DNA from: a virus
Direction: 5' to 3' (one strand)
IMG/VR virus record: IMGVR_UViG_3300044966_000230
Span: 1 to 37,535 of that record
DNA: 37,535 bases
How positions within the stretch are numbered: position 1 is the stretch's first letter; each line of letters starts with the position of its first letter. The notes below the pieces were generated by a model, which was not told the DNA's origin, made no database searches, and was given only the letters and a program-made list of their open reading frames with translations. Shown here in pieces: positions 711-35,702 of the stretch. The translations under genes were made by a program, and so were the position numbers.

Positions 711-935
711 AAATCCAAACTTTTGTTTCATCATTTCACGCTTTGCGGCGTTAAATCCTTTTGTCCACGCATTCATTATTTCAATGCTTGAAGCCTCAAA
801 TTTTGGAGTTTCTCCAATTTTTCTACCTTCTAACATTTTCATAAGTTCAGGGCTTTTTGAAGGTGCTGCCATAATTCCTTTTGCGAAATCTAATGTTCCT
901 AAAATTTCTGCGGTTTGAAGTTGTGTTGCTTTCAT
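708..935 (-). CDS. Small hypothetical protein with its own promoter (moron-like)
   Basis: A 75-residue protein of unknown function, beginning MKATQLQTAEILGTLDFAKG. It is soluble, lysine/methionine-rich and shows no motif I recognise. I chose ATG 935. The frame is open further up to 974, but those 13 extra codons would begin inside the -7 promoter element TATGTTTG (964-971), and the same leader precedes the genes at 8110 and 17438. Promoter, short AT-rich leader, single gene and following hairpin make a self-contained transcription unit between the replication organiser and dnaB. Function unknown; a host-takeover or superinfection role is possible but only inferred from the layout. Confidence 0.72.
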   Translation of the reverse strand: MKATQLQTAEILGTLDFAKGIMAAPSKSPELMKMLEGRKIGETPKFEASSIEIMNAWTKGFNAAKREMMKQKFGF

Positions 936-963
936 TGTGTAAGTGTTTAAGAGTTTGATGCAG

Positions 964-994
964 CAAACATACAACTCTTTTTTGATTCTGCAAA
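964..994 (-). promoter_or_regulatory. Bacteroidota-type promoter for the gene at 708-935
   Basis: On the minus strand, TTTG (994-991), a 19-nt spacer and TATGTTTG (971-964) match the Bacteroidota housekeeping promoter (-33 TTTG, -7 TAnnTTTG). Transcription should start near 957. The leader contains a TTAAAC element and a TTACACA element before ATG 935, as in the units at 8368-8398 and 17871-17901. Confidence 0.82.
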
Positions 995-1025
995 CTTTTT
1001 CTAAATTATTTTAAAAATATTTTTG

Positions 1026-1718
1026 TCATTGCATCTTTAGCCCCATCGAGGCGCGTGTTACTGTTGAGGTTTGCGGTTGTTTAGGATTGTTGTTTTTATT
1101 TGGTTCGAATAAGCCTTTATAGTTACCCTCAATGCTTCGTGCGATTCCATCGAGCGCCTCTTGTTCTGTTTTATAAATTTGAGGCATTTTTTTCATCAAA
1201 GATTTAATACCTAAAGTAGTCGGGTAATCTTTGTTCGTTATTCGATTAATCAAAAAATCTTTAAAGGCTTCGTTTAGTTTTTCGCTTTTTTCAAAAAATG
1301 TCATACCCCTTATTTCAATAACTGATTTAAAAACCCTATTTTCTTTTTTAACATTTTCATTTACATTAACACTTACACTTACATTATCACTATCACTATC
1401 ACTATCAGCTTCGTTTGCTAAGGTTTGCTTAGCAAATTTAGCATTTGCTTTTTTTGCTTGTTTTTGCTTGCCTTTGCTTAAACCACCTTTTTTACCAGCC
1501 TCTTTACGCTTTTCACAAGTAGATAAATATTTTTCTTTATCTCGGTCAAGTGTATTTTTTATAGGATTAAAAAGAAAAAATAAAGGGTTTTCAGGTGTGA
1601 TTGTTTTACCTTCAATCATATATTCAAATATGATAGTAGTTAGTTCTCCAAGCTGGCTTTTATCAAGATACTTTATTGTATCCCATAAATCACAGTATAA
1701 TATAAATGATGCTTTCAT
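1026..1718 (-). CDS. Phage replication organiser-like protein (DUF6291 type)
   Basis: A 230-residue protein whose N-terminus (MKASFILYCDLWDTIKYLDK, then SQLGELTTIIFEYM) resembles DUF6291, a family found in phages next to replication genes. Residues 1-60 form this domain. A basic, lysine/glycine-rich stretch follows (about 68-98), then a low-complexity linker of alternating Asp/Ser and Val/Asn encoded by hexamer repeats (1385-1407), then a helical C-terminal domain. Position just before dnaB and the two-domain shape fit a protein that binds origin DNA and recruits the helicase; this is inference by analogy to replisome organisers. The start overlaps the stop of the gene at 1718-1933. AT-richer than most of the window. 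Confidence 0.68.
   Translation of the reverse strand: MKASFILYCDLWDTIKYLDKSQLGELTTIIFEYMIEGKTITPENPLFFLFNPIKNTLDRDKEKYLSTCEKRKEAGKKGGLSKGKQKQAKKANAKFAKQTLANEADSDSDSDNVSVSVNVNENVKKENRVFKSVIEIRGMTFFEKSEKLNEAFKDFLINRITNKDYPTTLGIKSLMKKMPQIYKTEQEALDGIARSIEGNYKGLFEPNKNNNPKQPQTSTVTRASMGLKMQ
1385..1407. repeat. Short hexanucleotide tandem repeat (TATCAC)x3.8
   Basis: Nearly four direct copies of TATCAC inside the gene at 1026-1718, flanked by degenerate relatives (TTACAC, ACATTA) over about 1360-1410. On the coding strand they specify an alternating Ser/Asp linker passing into Val/Ser and Val/Asn. Because the unit is 6 bp, copy-number slippage would change linker length without shifting the frame. 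Confidence 0.85.
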
Positions 1719-1933
1719 TAGAAAATAATTCCGAATGTATCCTTATTGTCATCTGAAAATAACTGAATACCTCTTTGTATCCAATATGCCCTTTTTTTAT
1801 ATCTTAAAAGGTTTTCAATAGCGGTTGTATATTCACCATCACATTCACAAGCTCTACGCTCTAAATGTATTTGTTTCTCAATAGCTGCATTGATTAACGC
1901 CTCTTCGATTTGTTCTAAATAATTAGTTTCCAT
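1718..1933 (-). CDS. Small hypothetical helical protein
   Basis: A 71-residue, mostly helical protein starting METNYLEQIEEALINAAIEK, with a Cys-Glu-Cys (CEC) near residue 29 and a lysine/arginine-rich middle. No family recognised. I chose ATG 1933; the frame is open to 2005, but that extension lies inside the hairpin at 1947-2009 and would encode Arg/Pro-rich sequence from stem DNA. The start codon sits only 3 nt after the T-run of the hairpin, so expression probably depends on read-through or attenuation there. Its stop overlaps the start of the replication organiser, suggesting coupled translation. Confidence 0.65.
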   Translation of the reverse strand: METNYLEQIEEALINAAIEKQIHLERRACECDGEYTTAIENLLRYKKRAYWIQRGIQLFSDDNKDTFGIIF

Positions 1934-1935
1934 AT

Positions 1936-2009
1936 TAAAAAAAATACCCTTTGGTGGCTGCGGTCGAAGCGGCTCGGTTGTTAAACCTTGCCTCGCAGCC
2001 CTCAAAGGG
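1936..2009 (-). terminator. Strong intrinsic terminator or attenuator just upstream of a start codon
   Basis: Two nested perfect stems: CCCTTTG (1947-1953) with CAAAGGG (2003-2009), then, after a 2x2 internal loop, GGCTGCG (1956-1962) with CGCAGCC (1994-2000). On the minus strand the stem is followed by UAUUUUUUUU (1937-1946), which makes a textbook terminator for the operon ending with the gene at 2071. The next ATG (1933) is 3 nt beyond the T-run, an arrangement typical of attenuators. No clear promoter lies between hairpin and gene. Confidence 0.75.
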
Positions 2010-2070
2010 CTTCAAGATTTTTTAAACTACATTCAGGCTTCGACCTCTGAAAGTTTAAATATACTAAAAA

Positions 2071-2865
2071 TTACATATTTACGCCACACATTTCCAAACA
2101 GTTTTTACAATTGCCAAAATATGTTTTCTTATTAAACTTCGATACATACGTTTTCTTACCTAAAAACTTTGTTTTGTGTATGTTTATAACACCACTTTTT
2201 ACGAGCTGGTTGTTTTTAGAACTTCTAAACACCGTATCCAAAACCTCATACTTATTAAATATTTGCGCCTGTATTTCTGAAAACGTTTTACCATCATTTG
2301 AATCAGTATTAAAGTCGAATGAAACTACCCTTAAAATTGATTTACAATAAGGTTTAATTCTTTCATACTCATTCAAACATAAATCGAGTTGGCTTTTATC
2401 ATCAATTGCAGAAACTGAAGTATTAATACAAATTTTTAGCTTCGATATTCTTTTAAGTTGGTCATCAGTTAAAACAGTCCAATGCTTAGTTATTATAACT
2501 ATTTCTTTTCGACTATCCTCTTTAAACATATCTAACTGAATATTGCTTTGTATTTTTTCGCATATCAAAATAGTATGCTCCCAGTCTTCGGACGGGTCGC
2601 CCATCGTACCCATCCGAATAAAAGGCATCTTAACTTTACTTATCTCTCTTTTAATCTTATCTAACTGCTTTTGGCTCGTAAAGTTCTTTATAACTGTTTT
2701 GCTGAAATTATAGCCGTAAATTTTAGCAATGCGCGCGGCGTAACAATCATTATAACATCCTAACTTATTGTTTTTAGTTCCTGAAGAACAGCCAGCCGTA
2801 GGGTCTATTGAATAAATACCGCGCGCATTTTTGGTTAATGCTATAACATTCGAATAGGTTTTCAT
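2071..2865 (-). CDS. Cysteine-rich protein, DUF5131/radical-SAM-like, partner of the methyltransferase
   Basis: A 264-residue protein with an N-terminal cysteine cluster, GCSSGTKNNKLGCYNDCYAAR (about residues 25-45) shortened here as GC-x10-GCYNDCYA, resembling the GC...GCxxCYA signature of DUF5131-type proteins, and a C-terminal CKNCLEMCG cluster. Between them are segments reading like a TIM-barrel (MPFIRMGTMGDPSED; IVIITKHW; ICINTSVSA). Such clusters often bind an Fe-S centre or zinc; I cannot tell which. ATG 2865 overlaps the stop of the GNAT-methyltransferase gene (TAATG), so the two are translated together and probably act in one DNA-modification pathway. The operon ends at the hairpin 1936-2009. 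Family assignment tentative. Confidence 0.6.
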   Translation of the reverse strand: MKTYSNVIALTKNARGIYSIDPTAGCSSGTKNNKLGCYNDCYAARIAKIYGYNFSKTVIKNFTSQKQLDKIKREISKVKMPFIRMGTMGDPSEDWEHTILICEKIQSNIQLDMFKEDSRKEIVIITKHWTVLTDDQLKRISKLKICINTSVSAIDDKSQLDLCLNEYERIKPYCKSILRVVSFDFNTDSNDGKTFSEIQAQIFNKYEVLDTVFRSSKNNQLVKSGVINIHKTKFLGKKTYVSKFNKKTYFGNCKNCLEMCGVNM

Positions 2866-4265
2866 TATAAGCGCCCAACGTTTGGAAATAGGTCTTTAAT
2901 TTTGTTAGGGTCGCCCTTAAAAAACGCGTATACCTTTTGCTCGCATTTGGGGTACTTTCTTGAGTTTAGCGTTTTCTTAGCAGTTGCGCGGCGGGTAAAT
3001 TCGCTTTCTAAATACACGATTCTGTTATAAATATGCAGCCCTTGACTTTTAAAAAATAATTCGTGTTCGGCTTCGCATCCATAATAACCGCCTTTACTAT
3101 CGCGACTATCTCCAGTCATAACGACAAAGAAAGTATTATCATTCATTACCGAAATAGCTTTTTTATAACCTTCAAAAAGTAAATCTCTAAACTCGTCGTA
3201 AGTTGGCAAAGTGTTTAATTCACCGTCGGGCGATTTGCCGTCGTAATCAATATACTTTTCTACTTTATAATAAGGTGGGCAAGAAAATATTAAATCGAAT
3301 TTTTCGGGGTTTTTAGGTAAGTATTTTGAACTATCGGATTGAACCCATTTAACGTTATAAAAGTCCTGACAAATGGCATTATTTGCGTCGCATTGGTTTT
3401 CTCTAATTTCAGAGGATAGATATTCAAAACCGCACCCGCCAGCTACAAAACCCATTTGAACTCCGCCGCCGAATGGATTATAAACCCTCACGCCGTTTTT
3501 TGGCATAAACATTTTTACTATTATCTCACACAATGCAGGGTCTAAAACACTTGCATTGCCGTTTAGGTCTTTGCCTTTATCGGTTATAATTTCGTCGTCT
3601 TTTACAACTTGTTTAGATAAAACTACGTTGCTCATTCCGCTGCTACCTTGCCAGCAACCCTCGCGGCTTGCAAACTTTGGATTAGGTACGTTATACTTTA
3701 ACCCAGCCGCCTCAATTTTTTCGTTCCATTCTCTTTTAATCTTTAACCATTCGCCGCTCGTTGATTGCCATAAATTAGTCATAGCCATATGACAAAGTTT
3801 TTTTACACGCACTTGTTCAGGTTGCCCGTAGTACATATAAACGAAATCCGACTTTTCTAAATTCACTTTAAAGCCTAAAGCCGTAAATACTTTTGGATTT
3901 TCTAAATCATGCTTTTTAGATACCGTCATTATCATTACATAGTTATCAGTATTTTGCTTAATGATTTCAGAAACCATCATCGAATAAATGGTTTTATCTT
4001 TATACTCGGGATACATTGCCGACTGAAGCAAGCAAAACTCTTTTACAACGTGGTTAACCTCGTAAGTAAAAAAGCCCGCAAAATTGCCGTCAATCTCACA
4101 AATAATAGCTGAGTTCTTTTGCATATTCTTTCTTGCGGCTCGATATGCTACGCCATCCAATAAAGCAAGTTCGGCTACTTTTACTTCATAGCCCGAGCCT
4201 ATTACCGAATTAACTTTTTTAATTTCGATTTTTGGCTCAAATAGTTGTGTTTGTTTTGTGTTCAT
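2865..4265 (-). CDS. GNAT-like domain fused to a DNA methyltransferase
   Basis: A 466-residue two-domain protein. Residues ~25-150 look like a GNAT fold (SAIICEIDGNFAGFFTYEV, then FCLLQSAMYPEYKDKTIYSM and a C-terminal ALGF), though the usual acetyl-CoA RGxG loop is not evident. Residues ~190-466 are a Rossmann DNA aminomethyltransferase: SAM-binding VYNPFGGGVQMGF (near 265) and catalytic IFSCPPYY (near 335), the CPPY form of the N4/N6 motif IV. It should methylate adenine or cytosine amino groups, or act with the GNAT part in a larger base modification such as Mom-type carbamoylmethylation (inference). The following cysteine-rich gene starts on its stop codon. Substrate sequence unknown. Confidence 0.72.
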   Translation of the reverse strand: MNTKQTQLFEPKIEIKKVNSVIGSGYEVKVAELALLDGVAYRAARKNMQKNSAIICEIDGNFAGFFTYEVNHVVKEFCLLQSAMYPEYKDKTIYSMMVSEIIKQNTDNYVMIMTVSKKHDLENPKVFTALGFKVNLEKSDFVYMYYGQPEQVRVKKLCHMAMTNLWQSTSGEWLKIKREWNEKIEAAGLKYNVPNPKFASREGCWQGSSGMSNVVLSKQVVKDDEIITDKGKDLNGNASVLDPALCEIIVKMFMPKNGVRVYNPFGGGVQMGFVAGGCGFEYLSSEIRENQCDANNAICQDFYNVKWVQSDSSKYLPKNPEKFDLIFSCPPYYKVEKYIDYDGKSPDGELNTLPTYDEFRDLLFEGYKKAISVMNDNTFFVVMTGDSRDSKGGYYGCEAEHELFFKSQGLHIYNRIVYLESEFTRRATAKKTLNSRKYPKCEQKVYAFFKGDPNKIKDLFPNVGRL

Positions 4266-4282
4266 GATTTTTGTGTTTGTGT

Positions 4283-4675
4283 TTATTTGTTTAAATAGTT
4301 TTCAATCGTTTCAATACATTCATCTAACCCCGAGCAAAACAATGCCTCGAAACCAGCGTTTTTAAGCCGCGTAATGACTTCAAATTGTTCGGTAAGGTGT
4401 TCATCTTGCTTTAGCGTTCCATCGCGTTTAAACGGGTTAAAATCGCTTTTTTTTATTTCAATAAATAAACCGCTAAACTTTCCACGCGGGGCAGCGATAA
4501 ATAAATCGGGGTAGCCTCTTTGGGGGTTCATGCTTTTGTGAACCCTTGCTTGTCCCATACTCATTTTAGTTCCTGCGCTAAAGTCAAACCGAAAAAGTAT
4601 TTCGGGGTGCTTTAAGCTCATATAACGGGCAATGGCAGAATAAATATCGCTTTCGCGTGGCGGGCGGCGTTTCAT
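4283..4675 (-). CDS. VRR-NUC domain nuclease
   Basis: A 130-residue single-domain nuclease of the VRR-NUC branch of the PD-(D/E)XK superfamily. The N-terminal acidic residue is in RESDIYSAIARYM. The core motif is GYPDLFIAAPRGKFSGLFIE followed by IKK (about residues 54-76), giving the catalytic D...E-x-K. The C-terminal helix has Q-x-EV and ends near FEALFCSGLDECIETIENY, typical of the family. Phage VRR-NUC proteins probably act as structure-specific DNA nucleases during replication and recombination. Starts by ATGA overlap with the gene upstream, in the recombination/nuclease operon running from 7.7 to 4.3 kb. Confidence 0.85.
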   Translation of the reverse strand: MKRRPPRESDIYSAIARYMSLKHPEILFRFDFSAGTKMSMGQARVHKSMNPQRGYPDLFIAAPRGKFSGLFIEIKKSDFNPFKRDGTLKQDEHLTEQFEVITRLKNAGFEALFCSGLDECIETIENYLNK

Positions 4676-4935
4676 CGTTTGTAGATATTATTACAAACTA
4701 TCATGTATTCAACGCGCCCTTTTAAATCGGTTGTTTCGTCGTAAAGGTCTATCATTATGCTTCGATTGTTTTCGTGGTCGTTAAACACCTTGCGATATTT
4801 AAAACAGCACTCTAAGTATTCGAAGCCGCAGGATAAAAGGTAGGCGGCTACATTTTTGTAGGTGTGTCCGATAAATTCGGTAAGGTCGCCGAGGTCGTTA
4901 GCGTATGTAAGTGCCTCTTTCGATGATTTGCGCAT
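4672..4935 (-). CDS. Hypothetical protein in the recombination operon
   Basis: An 87-residue protein starting MRKSSKEALTYANDLGDLTE, with a cysteine-containing middle (SCGFEYLECCF) and acidic C-terminal half. No family recognised. It overlaps the 83-aa gene upstream by 38 nt and the VRR-NUC gene downstream by 4 nt, so it is translated as part of a chain of coupled genes that make nucleases and DNA-binding proteins. A role in DNA metabolism is suggested only by location. Confidence 0.62.
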   Translation of the reverse strand: MRKSSKEALTYANDLGDLTEFIGHTYKNVAAYLLSCGFEYLECCFKYRKVFNDHENNRSIMIDLYDETTDLKGRVEYMIVCNNIYKR

Positions 4936-5149
4936 TGAGTAAATTTATTAAATCAGTTCTTTCAACTTTTAAAAGTATTGCAATCGTATTCGCTGGTATC
5001 GTTCCTTTATGCAGCCACCAAAACTCGGCGCACTTAGTTAACTTTTTTTGATACCCGACACCCGTTTGAGGCATCCATTTAATAAGGCTATCGAGTTGAC
5101 TAATTAGCTTTAGGTAATCAAATTTCGTTTGTTTAACGCGTTCCTTCAT
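4898..5149 (-). CDS. Hypothetical basic protein in the recombination operon
   Basis: An 83-residue basic, mostly helical protein (MKERVKQTKFDYLKLISQLD...). The C-terminal part (KGTIPANTIAILLKVERTDL) could form a helix-turn-helix, but it is too short to assign. It overlaps the PD-(D/E)XK gene upstream by 17 nt and the next gene by 38 nt in a different frame; both overlaps are unusually long, yet each frame keeps its own ATG. Function unknown. Confidence 0.6.
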   Translation of the reverse strand: MKERVKQTKFDYLKLISQLDSLIKWMPQTGVGYQKKLTKCAEFWWLHKGTIPANTIAILLKVERTDLINLLNAQIIERGTYIR

Positions 5150-33116: not shown

Positions 33117-33457
33117 ACTACGCACTCCATTAAGTTAATTACTTCGGGTTCTTCGCTTATTATTTCAATGTTCGCCACGCTAAAGCTAATACAATCGTAT
33201 TCCACTTCGCATATCGTAAACTTATTGCAGCCAGCTAATTCGATTGTATAGCCTTGCCCGTTATCTATCTTCGCTCCCGTAATGGTTAGCAGCCCGTCAA
33301 TATCGGATTCGGCGTTAAACGCTTGCAGCTTATTCGTTGCGTTGCTTTTTAGCGTTATGGTGTAGCTTGTTTCGGGTTCTACAAATCCGAACGCTATACC
33401 GCCGTTACAGTAAGCTACTTGAATGCCTGAATCGAAGCAAGGTGAACAAACGCTCAT
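33104..33457 (-). CDS. Hypothetical cysteine-rich protein after the terminase
   Basis: A 117-residue beta-rich protein starting MSVCSPCFDSGIQVAYCNGG and ending LMECVVCNG, so CxxC pairs lie at both ends. The middle is beta sequence (TSYTITLKSNATNKLQAFNA). Similar N-terminal CxxC pairs occur in the 179-aa and 342-aa virion proteins here, so it is probably a virion component, such as a connector or tail-end protein. ATGA overlap with the terminase stop. Confidence 0.6.
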   Translation of the reverse strand: MSVCSPCFDSGIQVAYCNGGIAFGFVEPETSYTITLKSNATNKLQAFNAESDIDGLLTITGAKIDNGQGYTIELAGCNKFTICEVEYDCISFSVANIEIISEEPEVINLMECVVCNG

Positions 33458-34770
33458 AGGTATCGTTTAAGTATTGCGTTTACAAAGTAACGAAAACAAT
33501 CTAAAAAGTCGGCACGCTCTGAAATGTTTTTTCGGTTGCTCTTTATTATTTGCCCGTCCGCGTTGCATTGCACTTGCTTAGCGTCGAAAACAAAGCCTTT
33601 GCAGTTTTTACTATTAACGCGTATATCGAGTTTCTTTAGCGCGGTATTGCAATCAATACGGCTGTTAACGTGGCGCGGGTTCGCTGGTATTATTATTTGA
33701 TTATCGGCTAACTTGAGGCGGCGTTTAATCTGAATGTAAGCGCTTGAGTTATCGCGTTCCTGTATTGTACCGCCTTTGCCCATTGCGTCGCCTGTTATGC
33801 GTATTAGCCCCGTTGGTATGTTCAATGCTTCGACCGCATCGCAGAACGCATCTATTGAGCCGCGCTCTATCTTTATTTCATCCACTACCGTAGCCGAACT
33901 GCCAACGTTTTGAATAACCAAAGCGCATAACGGGTTAATGTTAAAATCGACGCTTATAAACGTCGGTAAATGCGCGTTATGTGTTACGCTATCGTCGATG
34001 TGCTTTTCATCGCTCCATGCGTATAGGAACGGGTTAGCAACGTCGTCTAATACGTCCCAGTCGCCCTCGACGAATCGAGCGTATTGAATAGGCGGTAATT
34101 CCTTTAGCGCTTCGAGGTATTCGGGCGCGATGTGTGGGTTATCTGTTATACGGCTCGGTATGTAAGCCCACCGTTCGGGTAATGTGTTTTCGCGGTATCG
34201 GTTGTATATAATCGACTTAACCCAGTTTTGCGCTGGGTTGCACGTTGCGAGGCAAACGATAGGCGGTTTACCGTGCGCTTTATTCCAACTGCCTATACGT
34301 TCCTGAACTTTGTAGAATGTTACTTCTTGTAATTCGTTTACCTCATCTAAGCCCGCGCCGTTAATCTCTAAACCTCGAAAGCGGTTTAAATCTTTATCGT
34401 CGTCAAACGATTCTGCCATGAACATAAGCTCCGAACCGTTTGTGAATGTTATAACGTTTGTTTCCCTATTCCAGTTCTTAACATAGCTGCTTACCCCGTC
34501 CATCATTATCGAGGCAAAGCTCGGGAACGTGGTACGCTTTAAGTCAGGTAGGCTTTTACGAATAACCGCCCATCGGCTGCGCGGGTACGTTAAACAAAGC
34601 GATGTTAGAGTTAATAGAAGCCAATACGTTTTACCGCCGCGAATCTTTGCCCCCACACTTTCGAGCGGGGGCGGTTATCGTATAGCGCCCCCGAAGACAA
34701 TTACTCTTTTGTCCCCGTTGGTCGCCATGTCGAAGGCTGTGGTTTGTGTTTCAGTTAATGTAAATTGCAT
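33454..34770 (-). CDS. terL: Large terminase, interrupted in Walker A by a stop codon and 36-nt insert
   Basis: The DNA-packaging ATPase and nuclease. Starting at ATG 34770 the frame reads MQFTLTETQTTAFDMATNGD then KRVIVFGGAIR and meets TAA (34677-34675). In the same frame 36 nt later it reads R-GGKTYWLLL... to the stop at 33454. Skipping the insert gives a normal 425-residue protein with Walker A GAIRGGKT. Other motifs are intact: Walker B with GAGLDEVNEL, coupling motif LATCNP, nuclease acids in FISVDFNINP, RITGDAMGKGG and SERADFLDCFRYF. A GTG at 34656 could start a 400-residue form, but that lacks the beta strand before the P-loop. Either translation bypasses the insert, or the gene is broken or starts internally. 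Intactness of the rest argues for function. Confidence 0.85.
34639..34677 (-). other. Candidate translational bypass element in terL
   Basis: Starts with UAA right after codons AUA CGA (Ile-Arg) and ends with landing codons AUU CGC (Ile-Arg). Skipping 36 nt from CGA to CGC keeps frame and protein. Fold 1: GGGGGCG (34692-34686, before the stop) pairs with CGCCCCC (34673-34667), placing CGA and UAA in the loop. Fold 2: GCCCCC (34672-34667) pairs with GGGGGC (34654-34649), extended by further pairs and capped by a GAAA tetraloop (34662-34659). The two folds exclude each other. T4 gene 60 bypass also has a stop after the take-off codon, a tetraloop hairpin and matching codons. One tRNA-Arg (ICG) can read both CGA and CGC. 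Confidence 0.6.
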
Positions 34771-35275
34771 AGCTTTTTATATTACGCATTGCTACGCTTT
34801 TGCATACTCCTAATTTATCAGCAATTGATTTATAGCTCATGCCTAACTTTCTTAGTAAATACATTTGCTCAATTTGCTCTTTTGTTCGTTTAGTCCTGTG
34901 GCTATCAATTGACCTTTTAGCCTTAATCAAACCATTATCAAATGCGTGCTTAATGTTTTCGGAATTAGTAACCCATTCAAGGTTTTCGATACGGTTATTC
35001 TGTTTATTGCCGTCTTTGTGATTAACCATAGGCTTATTCAATTCATTGCTTAAAAACGTTTCAGCAACTAATCGATGCACTTTAAATGTCGTGTGCTTGC
35101 CTAAGTGCTTAAATGCTACTCTTAAATAACCTTTTTTATCTTTTGCAGGCTTTAGGGTTTTGCCTTTTGCATTGATATACTTATCCAAATATTTAACCTT
35201 TCGGTCTATTGTTCGAACATTACCAAAGTTAGAAACCTCAACCTCTGAATTAAATGATTTCCAAATTTCATTCAT
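34751..35275 (-). CDS. HNH homing endonuclease (NUMOD4-HNH-HTH)
   Basis: A 174-residue free-standing homing endonuclease. Order: NUMOD4 (IWKSFNSEVEVSNFGNVRTI, ~3-25), HNH nuclease (VHRLVAETFL...MVNHKDGNKQNNRIENLEWV, ~63-105) with the catalytic H-N-x(8)-N pattern, and a C-terminal helix-turn-helix (KEQIEQMYLLRKLGMSYKSI then ADKLGVCKSVAMRNIKSY) for target binding. It is AT-richer than its neighbours, as expected for a mobile gene. It overlaps the small terminase stop by 8 nt and the first 20 nt of terL. The likely target is terL, given the bypass element 70-110 bp downstream; this is inference. Confidence 0.92.
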   Translation of the reverse strand: MNEIWKSFNSEVEVSNFGNVRTIDRKVKYLDKYINAKGKTLKPAKDKKGYLRVAFKHLGKHTTFKVHRLVAETFLSNELNKPMVNHKDGNKQNNRIENLEWVTNSENIKHAFDNGLIKAKRSIDSHRTKRTKEQIEQMYLLRKLGMSYKSIADKLGVCKSVAMRNIKSYAIYIN

Positions 35276-35702
35276 TGCTATTATTTTTAGTTTCGGTGCG
35301 AATGATAACGAGCGGTTCGGTAGTGGTTATGGTATTTTCTCCGTTATTGCTCCAACGCCCGCGCTGCCTATTCGCTAACCAATGTTTAGCCGCCGCCGTG
35401 TCAGAGGGTAGCTGCTTGCGTAGCTTTACTACTTCGCCGTCCTTAGTTACCGCTTCCTCGACTATCGTAACACCTAATGCACGCTCATACATCGAGCGCG
35501 CTACTTTAGCGTCCGCGTCCTCTTTGCCGCGTGTTAACGACTCTAAAAATGTGGGCTGGTCGCGTTTCCAATTGTTAAACGTCGCCTCACATATATCGAA
35601 TGCCGCTGCCATTTGCACGTCGTTAAGCCCGAGCAAAGCAAGGTTAAACGCCCGTTCGTCGTATTCGGGTTTATAATCCGTTGGTCTACCTAATTTTTTC
35701 AT
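35268..35702 (-). CDS. terS: Small terminase subunit
   Basis: A 144-residue protein that recognises phage DNA for packaging. The N-terminal helix-turn-helix reads GRPTDYKPEYDERAFNLALL, GLNDVQMAAAFDICEATFNN and WKRDQPTFLESLTRG. A helical oligomerisation region follows, and the C-terminus is Thr/Asn-rich and acidic. It is separated from the large subunit only by the inserted HNH gene. ATGA overlap with the 47-aa gene upstream supports the start. Confidence 0.87.
   Translation of the reverse strand: MKKLGRPTDYKPEYDERAFNLALLGLNDVQMAAAFDICEATFNNWKRDQPTFLESLTRGKEDADAKVARSMYERALGVTIVEEAVTKDGEVVKLRKQLPSDTAAAKHWLANRQRGRWSNNGENTITTTEPLVIIRTETKNNSNE

Follow-up and report, generated by a model that had tools for sequence, protein, structure and literature searches.

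The stretch of DNA analysed here (the window) is the whole of positions 1 to 37,535 of the IMG/VR virus record IMGVR_UViG_3300044966_000230, 37,535 nt in length. Its minus strand carries, in this order, the gene for the terminase small subunit (terS), a gene for a predicted HNH homing endonuclease, and the gene for the terminase large subunit (terL). A Pfam search with terS (35268..35702) gave no match. An earlier note on this DNA had placed a NUMOD4/HNH gene between terS and terL, overlapping both, and this arrangement is borne out: the HNH ORF (34751-35275) shares 8 nt with the end of terS (35268) and 20 nt with the start of terL (ATG 34770). The terL gene itself is interrupted, as its Walker A codons are split into GGAIR and GGKT by an insert that contains a stop codon. 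The gene encodes MQFTLTETQTTAFDMATNGDKRVIVFGGAIR, followed by TAA, and reading resumes at RGGKTYW, the takeoff codon being CGA at 34680-34678 (Table 1). The insert lies 74-112 nt beyond the HNH stop, in agreement with the 70-110 bp estimated previously. No second Terminase_6N match was found in the record, and no tRNA genes were found in a search of the window. The attribution of this DNA to a Bacteroidota phage should be taken as a weak pointer: among isolates, Flavobacterium phage 11b matches the window TerL best, with 32% identity, and a TerL scan of genome contigs returned one relative, from Fibrisoma montanum, which is insert-free and 30% identical.

Table 1. Features of the terminase locus in the window, followed by terL genes of other families that are broken at the P-loop
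Sequence	Feature	Coordinates	Strand	Remarks
Window	terS (terminase small subunit)	35268..35702	-	position and conservation beside terL
Window	predicted free-standing HNH homing endonuclease gene, 174 aa	34751..35275	-	NUMOD4 + HNH_3 + HTH
Window	terL 5' part, 31 codons	34678..34770	-	last residues ...VIVFGGAIR, first half of Walker A
Window	upstream stem-loop (5'SL)	34693..34716	-	GGGGACAA / TTGTCTTC, 8 bp
Window	39-nt insert	34639..34677	-	in-frame TAA 34675-34677, hairpin, landing codon CGC 34639-34641
Window	gap hairpin	34649..34672	-	GAAA tetraloop 34659-34662; covariation among relatives
Window	terL 3' part	33454..34641	-	landing codon, GGKTYW..., remaining terminase ATPase/nuclease; Terminase_6N match
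L339	terL	1090-2526		GGAIR (CGT), TAA, GNRA hairpin, landing CGT, 39 nt
L335	terL	2123-3461		GGAA (GCT), CTT TAA, hairpin, landing GCA, 40 nt (manual count)
L308	terL	3549-5048		GGAIR (CGA), TGA, GNRA hairpin, then SGGKT
L366	terL P-loop	near 3768		GGT TA GGT before SAKT
L324	terL	3525-4959		1 extra nt at P-loop
L312	terL	748-2147		5 extra nt at P-loop

Searches with TerL, the HNH, TerS and the insert yielded 266 TerL matches, which reduce to 139 distinct loci; the distant Fibrisoma relative (L210) was set aside, and the remaining 138 were classified. A search with the insert pattern matched 48 contigs, one presumed carrier (L170) being a chance pattern match that was dropped. The insert is present in 44 of the 138 loci and absent from 94, always at the same codon, and it is invariably flanked by ATA CGA and CGN GGN GGN AAA. 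Its length is 39 nt at 19 loci, 40 nt at one and 41 nt at 24, so that all three frames are represented. Since it is seen in many metagenomes and in three frames, assembly error is excluded, and the interruption recorded in the earlier note is real. The only 40-nt insert among the 44 is that of L179, at 6268. One 52-kb contig (IMGVR_UViG_3300044695_002763) holds two terL loci of the family (L008 and L013), one insert-bearing and the other insert-free, from tandem, co-assembled or chimeric phages.

The codons at the borders of the insert are constrained. All 44 insert-bearing loci have CGA as the takeoff codon, and in all 44 the zero frame is closed by an in-frame stop; the matching arginine codon of the 94 insert-free loci is CGA in 33, CGT in 31, CGC in 19, AGA in 8, AGG in 2 and CGG in 1. 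The landing codons are CGA (19 loci), CGT (14) and CGC (11), three codons that in many bacteria are read by a single inosine-34 tRNA-Arg. Within the 41-nt class, a TAA in the landing frame stands directly before the landing codon at 19 of 24 loci, the remaining five having TAT there and an open landing frame. With the TAA abutting the landing codon, neither a frameshift nor an upstream restart would yield product at those 19 loci.

Every one of the 44 inserts contains a hairpin (the gap hairpin) whose stem is capped by a GNAA tetraloop, with the G-A-A of the loop invariant. Across 21 distinct sequences, 98.9% of the cells in the 9-bp stem are paired, double changes occupy 31 cells against 12.6 expected from shuffles and 0-4 in slid versions of the stem, and compensatory changes are seen in four of the nine pairs. 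The stem in the window contains one T-T mismatch, and the window RNA folds no better than its shuffles (z -0.47), the weakest value of the four sequences tried, the other three lying at -2.4 to -2.9. The second element, the 5'SL, spans positions 36 to 13 nt upstream of the takeoff codon and, in the window, ends 12 nt before it. Its pairing is complete in 13 of 16 distinct insert-bearing 36-mers and in 5 of 83 insert-free ones, with median z values against synonymous shuffles of -1.78 and 0.18, respectively; the 5'SL accompanies the insert and is rare without it. As judged from dN/dS, purifying selection acts on both halves of terL with similar strength whether the insert is present (0.033 for the C part and 0.133 for the N part) or absent (0.034 and 0.184). 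A search of Rfam with positions 34400-35400 of the window gave no intron match even at E values up to 10. Two protein halves split by a stop-bearing gap, synonymous takeoff and landing codons, a gap hairpin and a 5'SL are the features of a bypass element, and it is highly probable that the insert is a programmed ribosome bypass element, this being the best reading of the comparative signature. The suggestion in the earlier note that the insert is bypassed has thereby gained support from the stops, the codons, both hairpins and the selection acting on terL.

The product of the HNH gene matches NUMOD4 (E 2e-8) and HNH_3 (E 6e-12) above the Pfam cut-off and an HTH domain below it. Among solved structures it comes nearest to chain 1u3e_M, labelled 'HNH homing endonuclease' (E 2e-15), which we take to be I-HmuI. 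By its domains and intact ORF the protein is thus predicted to be a homing endonuclease of the I-HmuI/NUMOD4 type. The ORF is complete at all 21 loci that bear it, with lengths of 174-178 aa, and the median dN/dS of the family (0.139, from the 52 of 210 pairs with usable dS) indicates that these intact genes evolve under purifying selection. Two alternative versions of the C-terminal HTH exist in the family. When compared with the proteins of L199 and the window, the HNH of L283 (2374-2898) resembles a chimera of both versions, as if the DNA-binding specificity had been swapped.

The distribution of the HNH gene is linked to that of the insert. It lies between terS and terL at 21 of the 44 insert-bearing loci and at 0 of the 94 insert-free loci (Fisher p 6e-13, kinship disregarded); L224 was counted as lacking the HNH in this comparison, its apparent HNH being an over-extended ORF of L213. 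The link keeps its sign in 17 tree-independent pairs, where the HNH goes with the insert about nine times and never the opposite way (p ~0.004). The gene is absent from 23 of the 44 insert-bearing loci, two of which have less than 700 nt of upstream sequence. A census of loci with both elements, with one or with neither had been proposed in the earlier note, which regarded an HNH in many insert-free relatives as evidence against a mobile cassette. The 138 loci comprise those with neither, those with both and those with the insert only, and the class with the HNH only is missing, which is the pattern that a nuclease combined with a resistance insert predicts. The missing class suggests, at the level of sequence comparison, that the insert may confer resistance to the endonuclease. 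A search led by the HNH is blind to the insert, and among the best 80 of the 561 loci that it matched, 16 matches reach 50% identity or more along the whole query or most of it. The terL gene is readable in 15 of these 16 (L140 among them) and carries the insert in 15 of 15; in the sixteenth (L303) the sequence ends inside the HNH gene. We consider it quite likely that the HNH and the insert form a linked cassette.

Evidence for movement comes from comparing trees of the two parts of terL. The terL-C tree holds 131 of the 138 loci, 40 of them insert-bearing, after seven loci with less than 900 nt of terL-C were left out (including four insert-bearing ones, three of these with the HNH). The presence of the insert changes 23 times on this tree, at least 17 of the changes being forced by supported branches; on the terL-N tree, which is built from only 75 columns, the 75 nt directly 5' of the insert, it changes twice. 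Where two loci are closely related (88% or more over the C part), their terL 5' parts are 97.3% alike when both carry the insert and 69.3% alike when only one does, and the identity profile reveals a linked tract 5' of the insert that ends at the insert. L003 and L018 are 98-100% alike over the HNH and the terL 5' end, about 92% alike over terL-C and about 36% alike over terS, and between L213 and L225 (on the L004 and L018 contigs) the HNH DNA shows 99.6% identity. These blocks uphold the co-movement that the mobile-cassette proposal had assumed and indicate that the HNH, the terL 5' end and the insert can move as one unit. Compared with the window, L082 is 77% alike in its HNH and 80% in its TerL, and L003 is 57% alike in its HNH and 99% in its TerL; these mismatches imply that the HNH also moves relative to terL. 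At L018/L225 the HNH and terL are close to those of the window and the terS upstream of the HNH is unrelated to the window terS at the DNA level, so that terS appears to have been swapped as a module.

Exchange at this position is not specific to the cassette, because insert-free terL 5' alleles are swapped as well (RQAF versus DYAV type, 4 changes among 18 rows; insert versus DYAV type, 9 changes among 53 rows), and thus exchange alone is no proof of homing. Moreover, linkage on the 5' side is expected if the 5'SL belongs to the bypass signal, and it may therefore come from the function of the 5'SL in recoding and not from co-conversion.

Outside this family, weaker HNH matches among the best 80 of 561 lie directly 5' of distant terL genes that are likewise broken at the P-loop (Table 1). 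Codons on the two sides of the break are matched or synonymous in L339 (CGT-CGT), L335 (GCT-GCA) and L366 (GGT-GGT), and unmatched in L308-L310, L312 and L324. The L308-L310 sequences are identical over the stretch compared and represent one lineage, in which an obvious matched landing codon was not found; the breaks in L324 (1 nt) and L312 (5 nt) could be sequencing errors or dead genes. Flavobacterium phage 11b, a relative of L335 (73% identity), has an uninterrupted GGAAGGGKS and no HNH at that place, and Paenibacillus phage API480, compared with L366 (57.5%), has an intact FGGYGSGKT. With P-loop breaks in the 15 close matches, in L308-L310 and in five others, every recognised terL directly 3' of a free-standing HNH is interrupted among the matches listed, the downstream genes of the remaining HNH loci having been inspected by eye. 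In L306, L307 and L344 the HNH relatives lie 5' of terS and the terL P-loop is intact; these are outside the cassette position and were counted neither way. A search of Bacteroidota matched 6 of 395 genomes, and no interrupted terL was recognised there. In L326 (1120-2130) another terL apparently has a group I intron within its P-loop codons and an HNH relative within that intron, the intron match in Rfam being sub-threshold (15.9 bits).

The closest known parallel is in phage T4, where, according to a paper of 2011, MobA and the gene 60 insert reportedly act as a mobile cassette. The earlier note had also drawn this parallel and had named MobE as the partner of gene 60; the partner is MobA, whose gene lies between genes 39 and 60, and MobE is located between nrdA and nrdB (PMC3014915, PMC2988022). 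In T4 as in the window, a short insert interrupts a coding sequence and has an HNH endonuclease gene 5' of it (PMC5009743, PMC3014915, PMC11194080, PMC2988022). The T4 element is likewise described with a take-off codon, a gap hairpin stabilised by a tetraloop, a 5' stem-loop and a synonymous landing codon; in the window a stop is 3' adjacent to the take-off codon. The 5' stem-loop of gene 60 is thought to pull the mRNA (PMC5009743, PMC11194080), and it has been proposed that the T4 insert may have protected against the nuclease (PMC5009743). The T4 element, however, runs from GGA to GGA over 50 nt within a topoisomerase gene, whereas the present one runs from Arg CGA to CGN over 39-41 nt within the P-loop codons of the unrelated terL. 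The T4 case was called 'apparently unique' in 2010 (PMC3014915), whereas here many lineages are polymorphic for the presence of the insert and of the HNH, and the HNH ORFs are intact where T4 mobA has been called 'apparently defective'. By analogy, the terL locus may be a counterpart of the T4 cassette and work like it, and an independent invention, as the earlier note envisaged, is plausible in that T4 gene 60 is an unrelated gene.

Other systems share single features with the locus. Bypassing has been proposed for a terminase gene of Streptomyces phage Hau3 (PMC5009743), where the gap is described as much shorter, located at a UUA codon and thought to be regulatory, without bypass of a deleterious insert; here, in contrast, a structured 39-41-nt insert occupies the P-loop and has an HNH gene as its neighbour. 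I-HmuI and other NUMOD4/HNH endonucleases resemble the window HNH in domain make-up and sequence, but the window HNH is free-standing between terS and terL and not intronic; MobA, MobE and I-HmuI-like HNH endonucleases are reported to nick one strand (PMC2988022). The byp elements of Magnusiomyces capitatus mitochondria and the 29-nt hop of Prevotella loescheii are also non-coding stretches skipped in translation, but have no gene or HNH in common with this locus; in the account of PMC5009743, bypassing in M. capitatus is seemingly independent of mRNA context and the P. loescheii report stands without follow-up. Among open-licence PMC papers, we found none on bypassing at the terL P-loop linked to an HNH.

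The explanation that we favour, with a probability of roughly 0.6 as a whole, is that the locus is a homing cassette, in which an I-HmuI-type HNH gene between terS and terL is combined with a structured and non-coding gap of 39-41 nt in the Walker A codons. A ribosome translating terL would arrive with CGA in its P site, the gap hairpin and the stop ahead of it and the refolding 5'SL behind it. The peptidyl-tRNA-Arg would then detach, slide across the gap and re-pair at CGA, CGC or CGT, and re-pairing past the gap would result in an intact GGAIRGGKT P-loop. We infer bypassing as the mechanism from the comparative signature described above. At the DNA level, the gap would split what in insert-free terL would be the nicking site of the HNH, and repair templated by the carrier DNA would bring in the insert together with adjoining sequence, the HNH being included or not. 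Cleavage of the uninterrupted Walker A site by the HNH, and protection of that site by the insert, we regard as somewhat more probable than the contrary.

Not all of the evidence demands a homing nuclease. The insert and the terL 5' hairpin could constitute a recoding module spread by ordinary phage recombination, with the HNH as a passenger, a scenario that would accommodate the 23 of 44 insert-bearing loci without the HNH, the recombination of insert-free terL 5' alleles at the same place, and the co-travel of the tract 5' of the insert, which the 5'SL would explain. Conversely, a passenger would not be expected to be missing beside all 94 uninterrupted terL genes of the family, nor should other terL families with a free-standing HNH at this position also be broken at the P-loop, as they are among the matches listed; moreover, the HNH ORFs are intact and show signs of purifying selection, and we consider this scenario unlikely. 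Removal of the gap from the mRNA, as a tiny intron or by an endonuclease-ligase reaction, would likewise spare the ribosome from skipping it. The insert is structured and has a GNRA loop, and the L326 relative of the HNH seems to occupy a group I intron at the terL P-loop, but 39-41 nt is, to our knowledge, far below the length of any self-splicing intron. Splicing would also need no synonymous arginine codons at the borders, yet both are kept in 44 of 44 loci and matched codons recur in L339, L335 and L366; together with the lack of any Rfam intron at the window locus, this makes removal from the mRNA improbable.

The position of the HNH gene between terS and terL could instead reflect a role in DNA packaging unrelated to the insert, as a link to packaging has been reported for HNH genes next to terminase genes (PMC12724721, PMC5304195) in the case of GVE2/HK97-type HNH proteins. 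The gene is, however, of the I-HmuI/NUMOD4 type and evidently dispensable, since it is absent from all 94 insert-free and from 23 of the 44 insert-bearing loci, and PMC12724721 describes I-HmuI-like HNHs as variably present and packaging-linked GVE2-like HNHs as present in all genomes studied there; a packaging role is accordingly very improbable. Hardly better are the prospects of stop read-through or restart, by which a truncated or longer TerL would be made and tolerated. Read-through is formally possible in the 39-nt class, where the frame stays open past the stop, and an in-frame GTG in the window could serve for restart, but the 40- and 41-nt classes shift the frame, the TAA lies directly against the landing codon at 19 of the 24 loci of the 41-nt class, the GTG is not conserved, and the extension would land inside the P-loop. 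That terL is a pseudogene, or the insert an assembly artefact, can practically be dismissed: the data do consist of metagenome contigs only, but the insert occurs in 44 distinct contexts, both halves of terL are selected as in intact alleles, and the record holds no second Terminase_6N match. Frameshift, restart, read-through, pseudogene and artefact were thus rejected on the frame classes, the position of the TAA, the selection and the 44 contexts.

If the homing-cassette explanation is extended to the other terL families, we see an even chance that phages in general offer a homing target in the Walker A (P-loop) codons of terL, and that bypassing provides a recurrent, intron-like route to immunity of an essential gene against a homing nuclease. 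In that event I-HmuI/NUMOD4-type HNHs would have lodged repeatedly between terS and terL, and the terL gene would persist in at least five lineages because ribosomes hop or shift across small insertions that destroy the site, meaning the 39-41-nt hairpins, the 40-nt GCT-GCA hop, the 5-nt GGT-TA-GGT hop and others; the L326 relative seems to sit in its group I intron at the same motif.

Few uses of bypassing were known in 2016 (PMC5009743). For an essential gene, 44 putative bypass alleles that cover all three frames and have covarying signals form, together with the 94 insert-free controls, a natural collection that is linked to intact genes of predicted homing endonucleases. With this collection one can test whether bypass elements originate as a defence against homing nucleases, and it provides material for defining the minimal bypass signal, namely the 5'SL, the gap hairpin with its GNAA loop and the Arg-CGA take-off. 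In annotation, gene callers will call such terL genes truncated. A group I intron (RF00028, 85.7 bits) is present in L367 (2711-2968), upstream of an HNH gene and of a terL fragment whose start lies close to Walker B.
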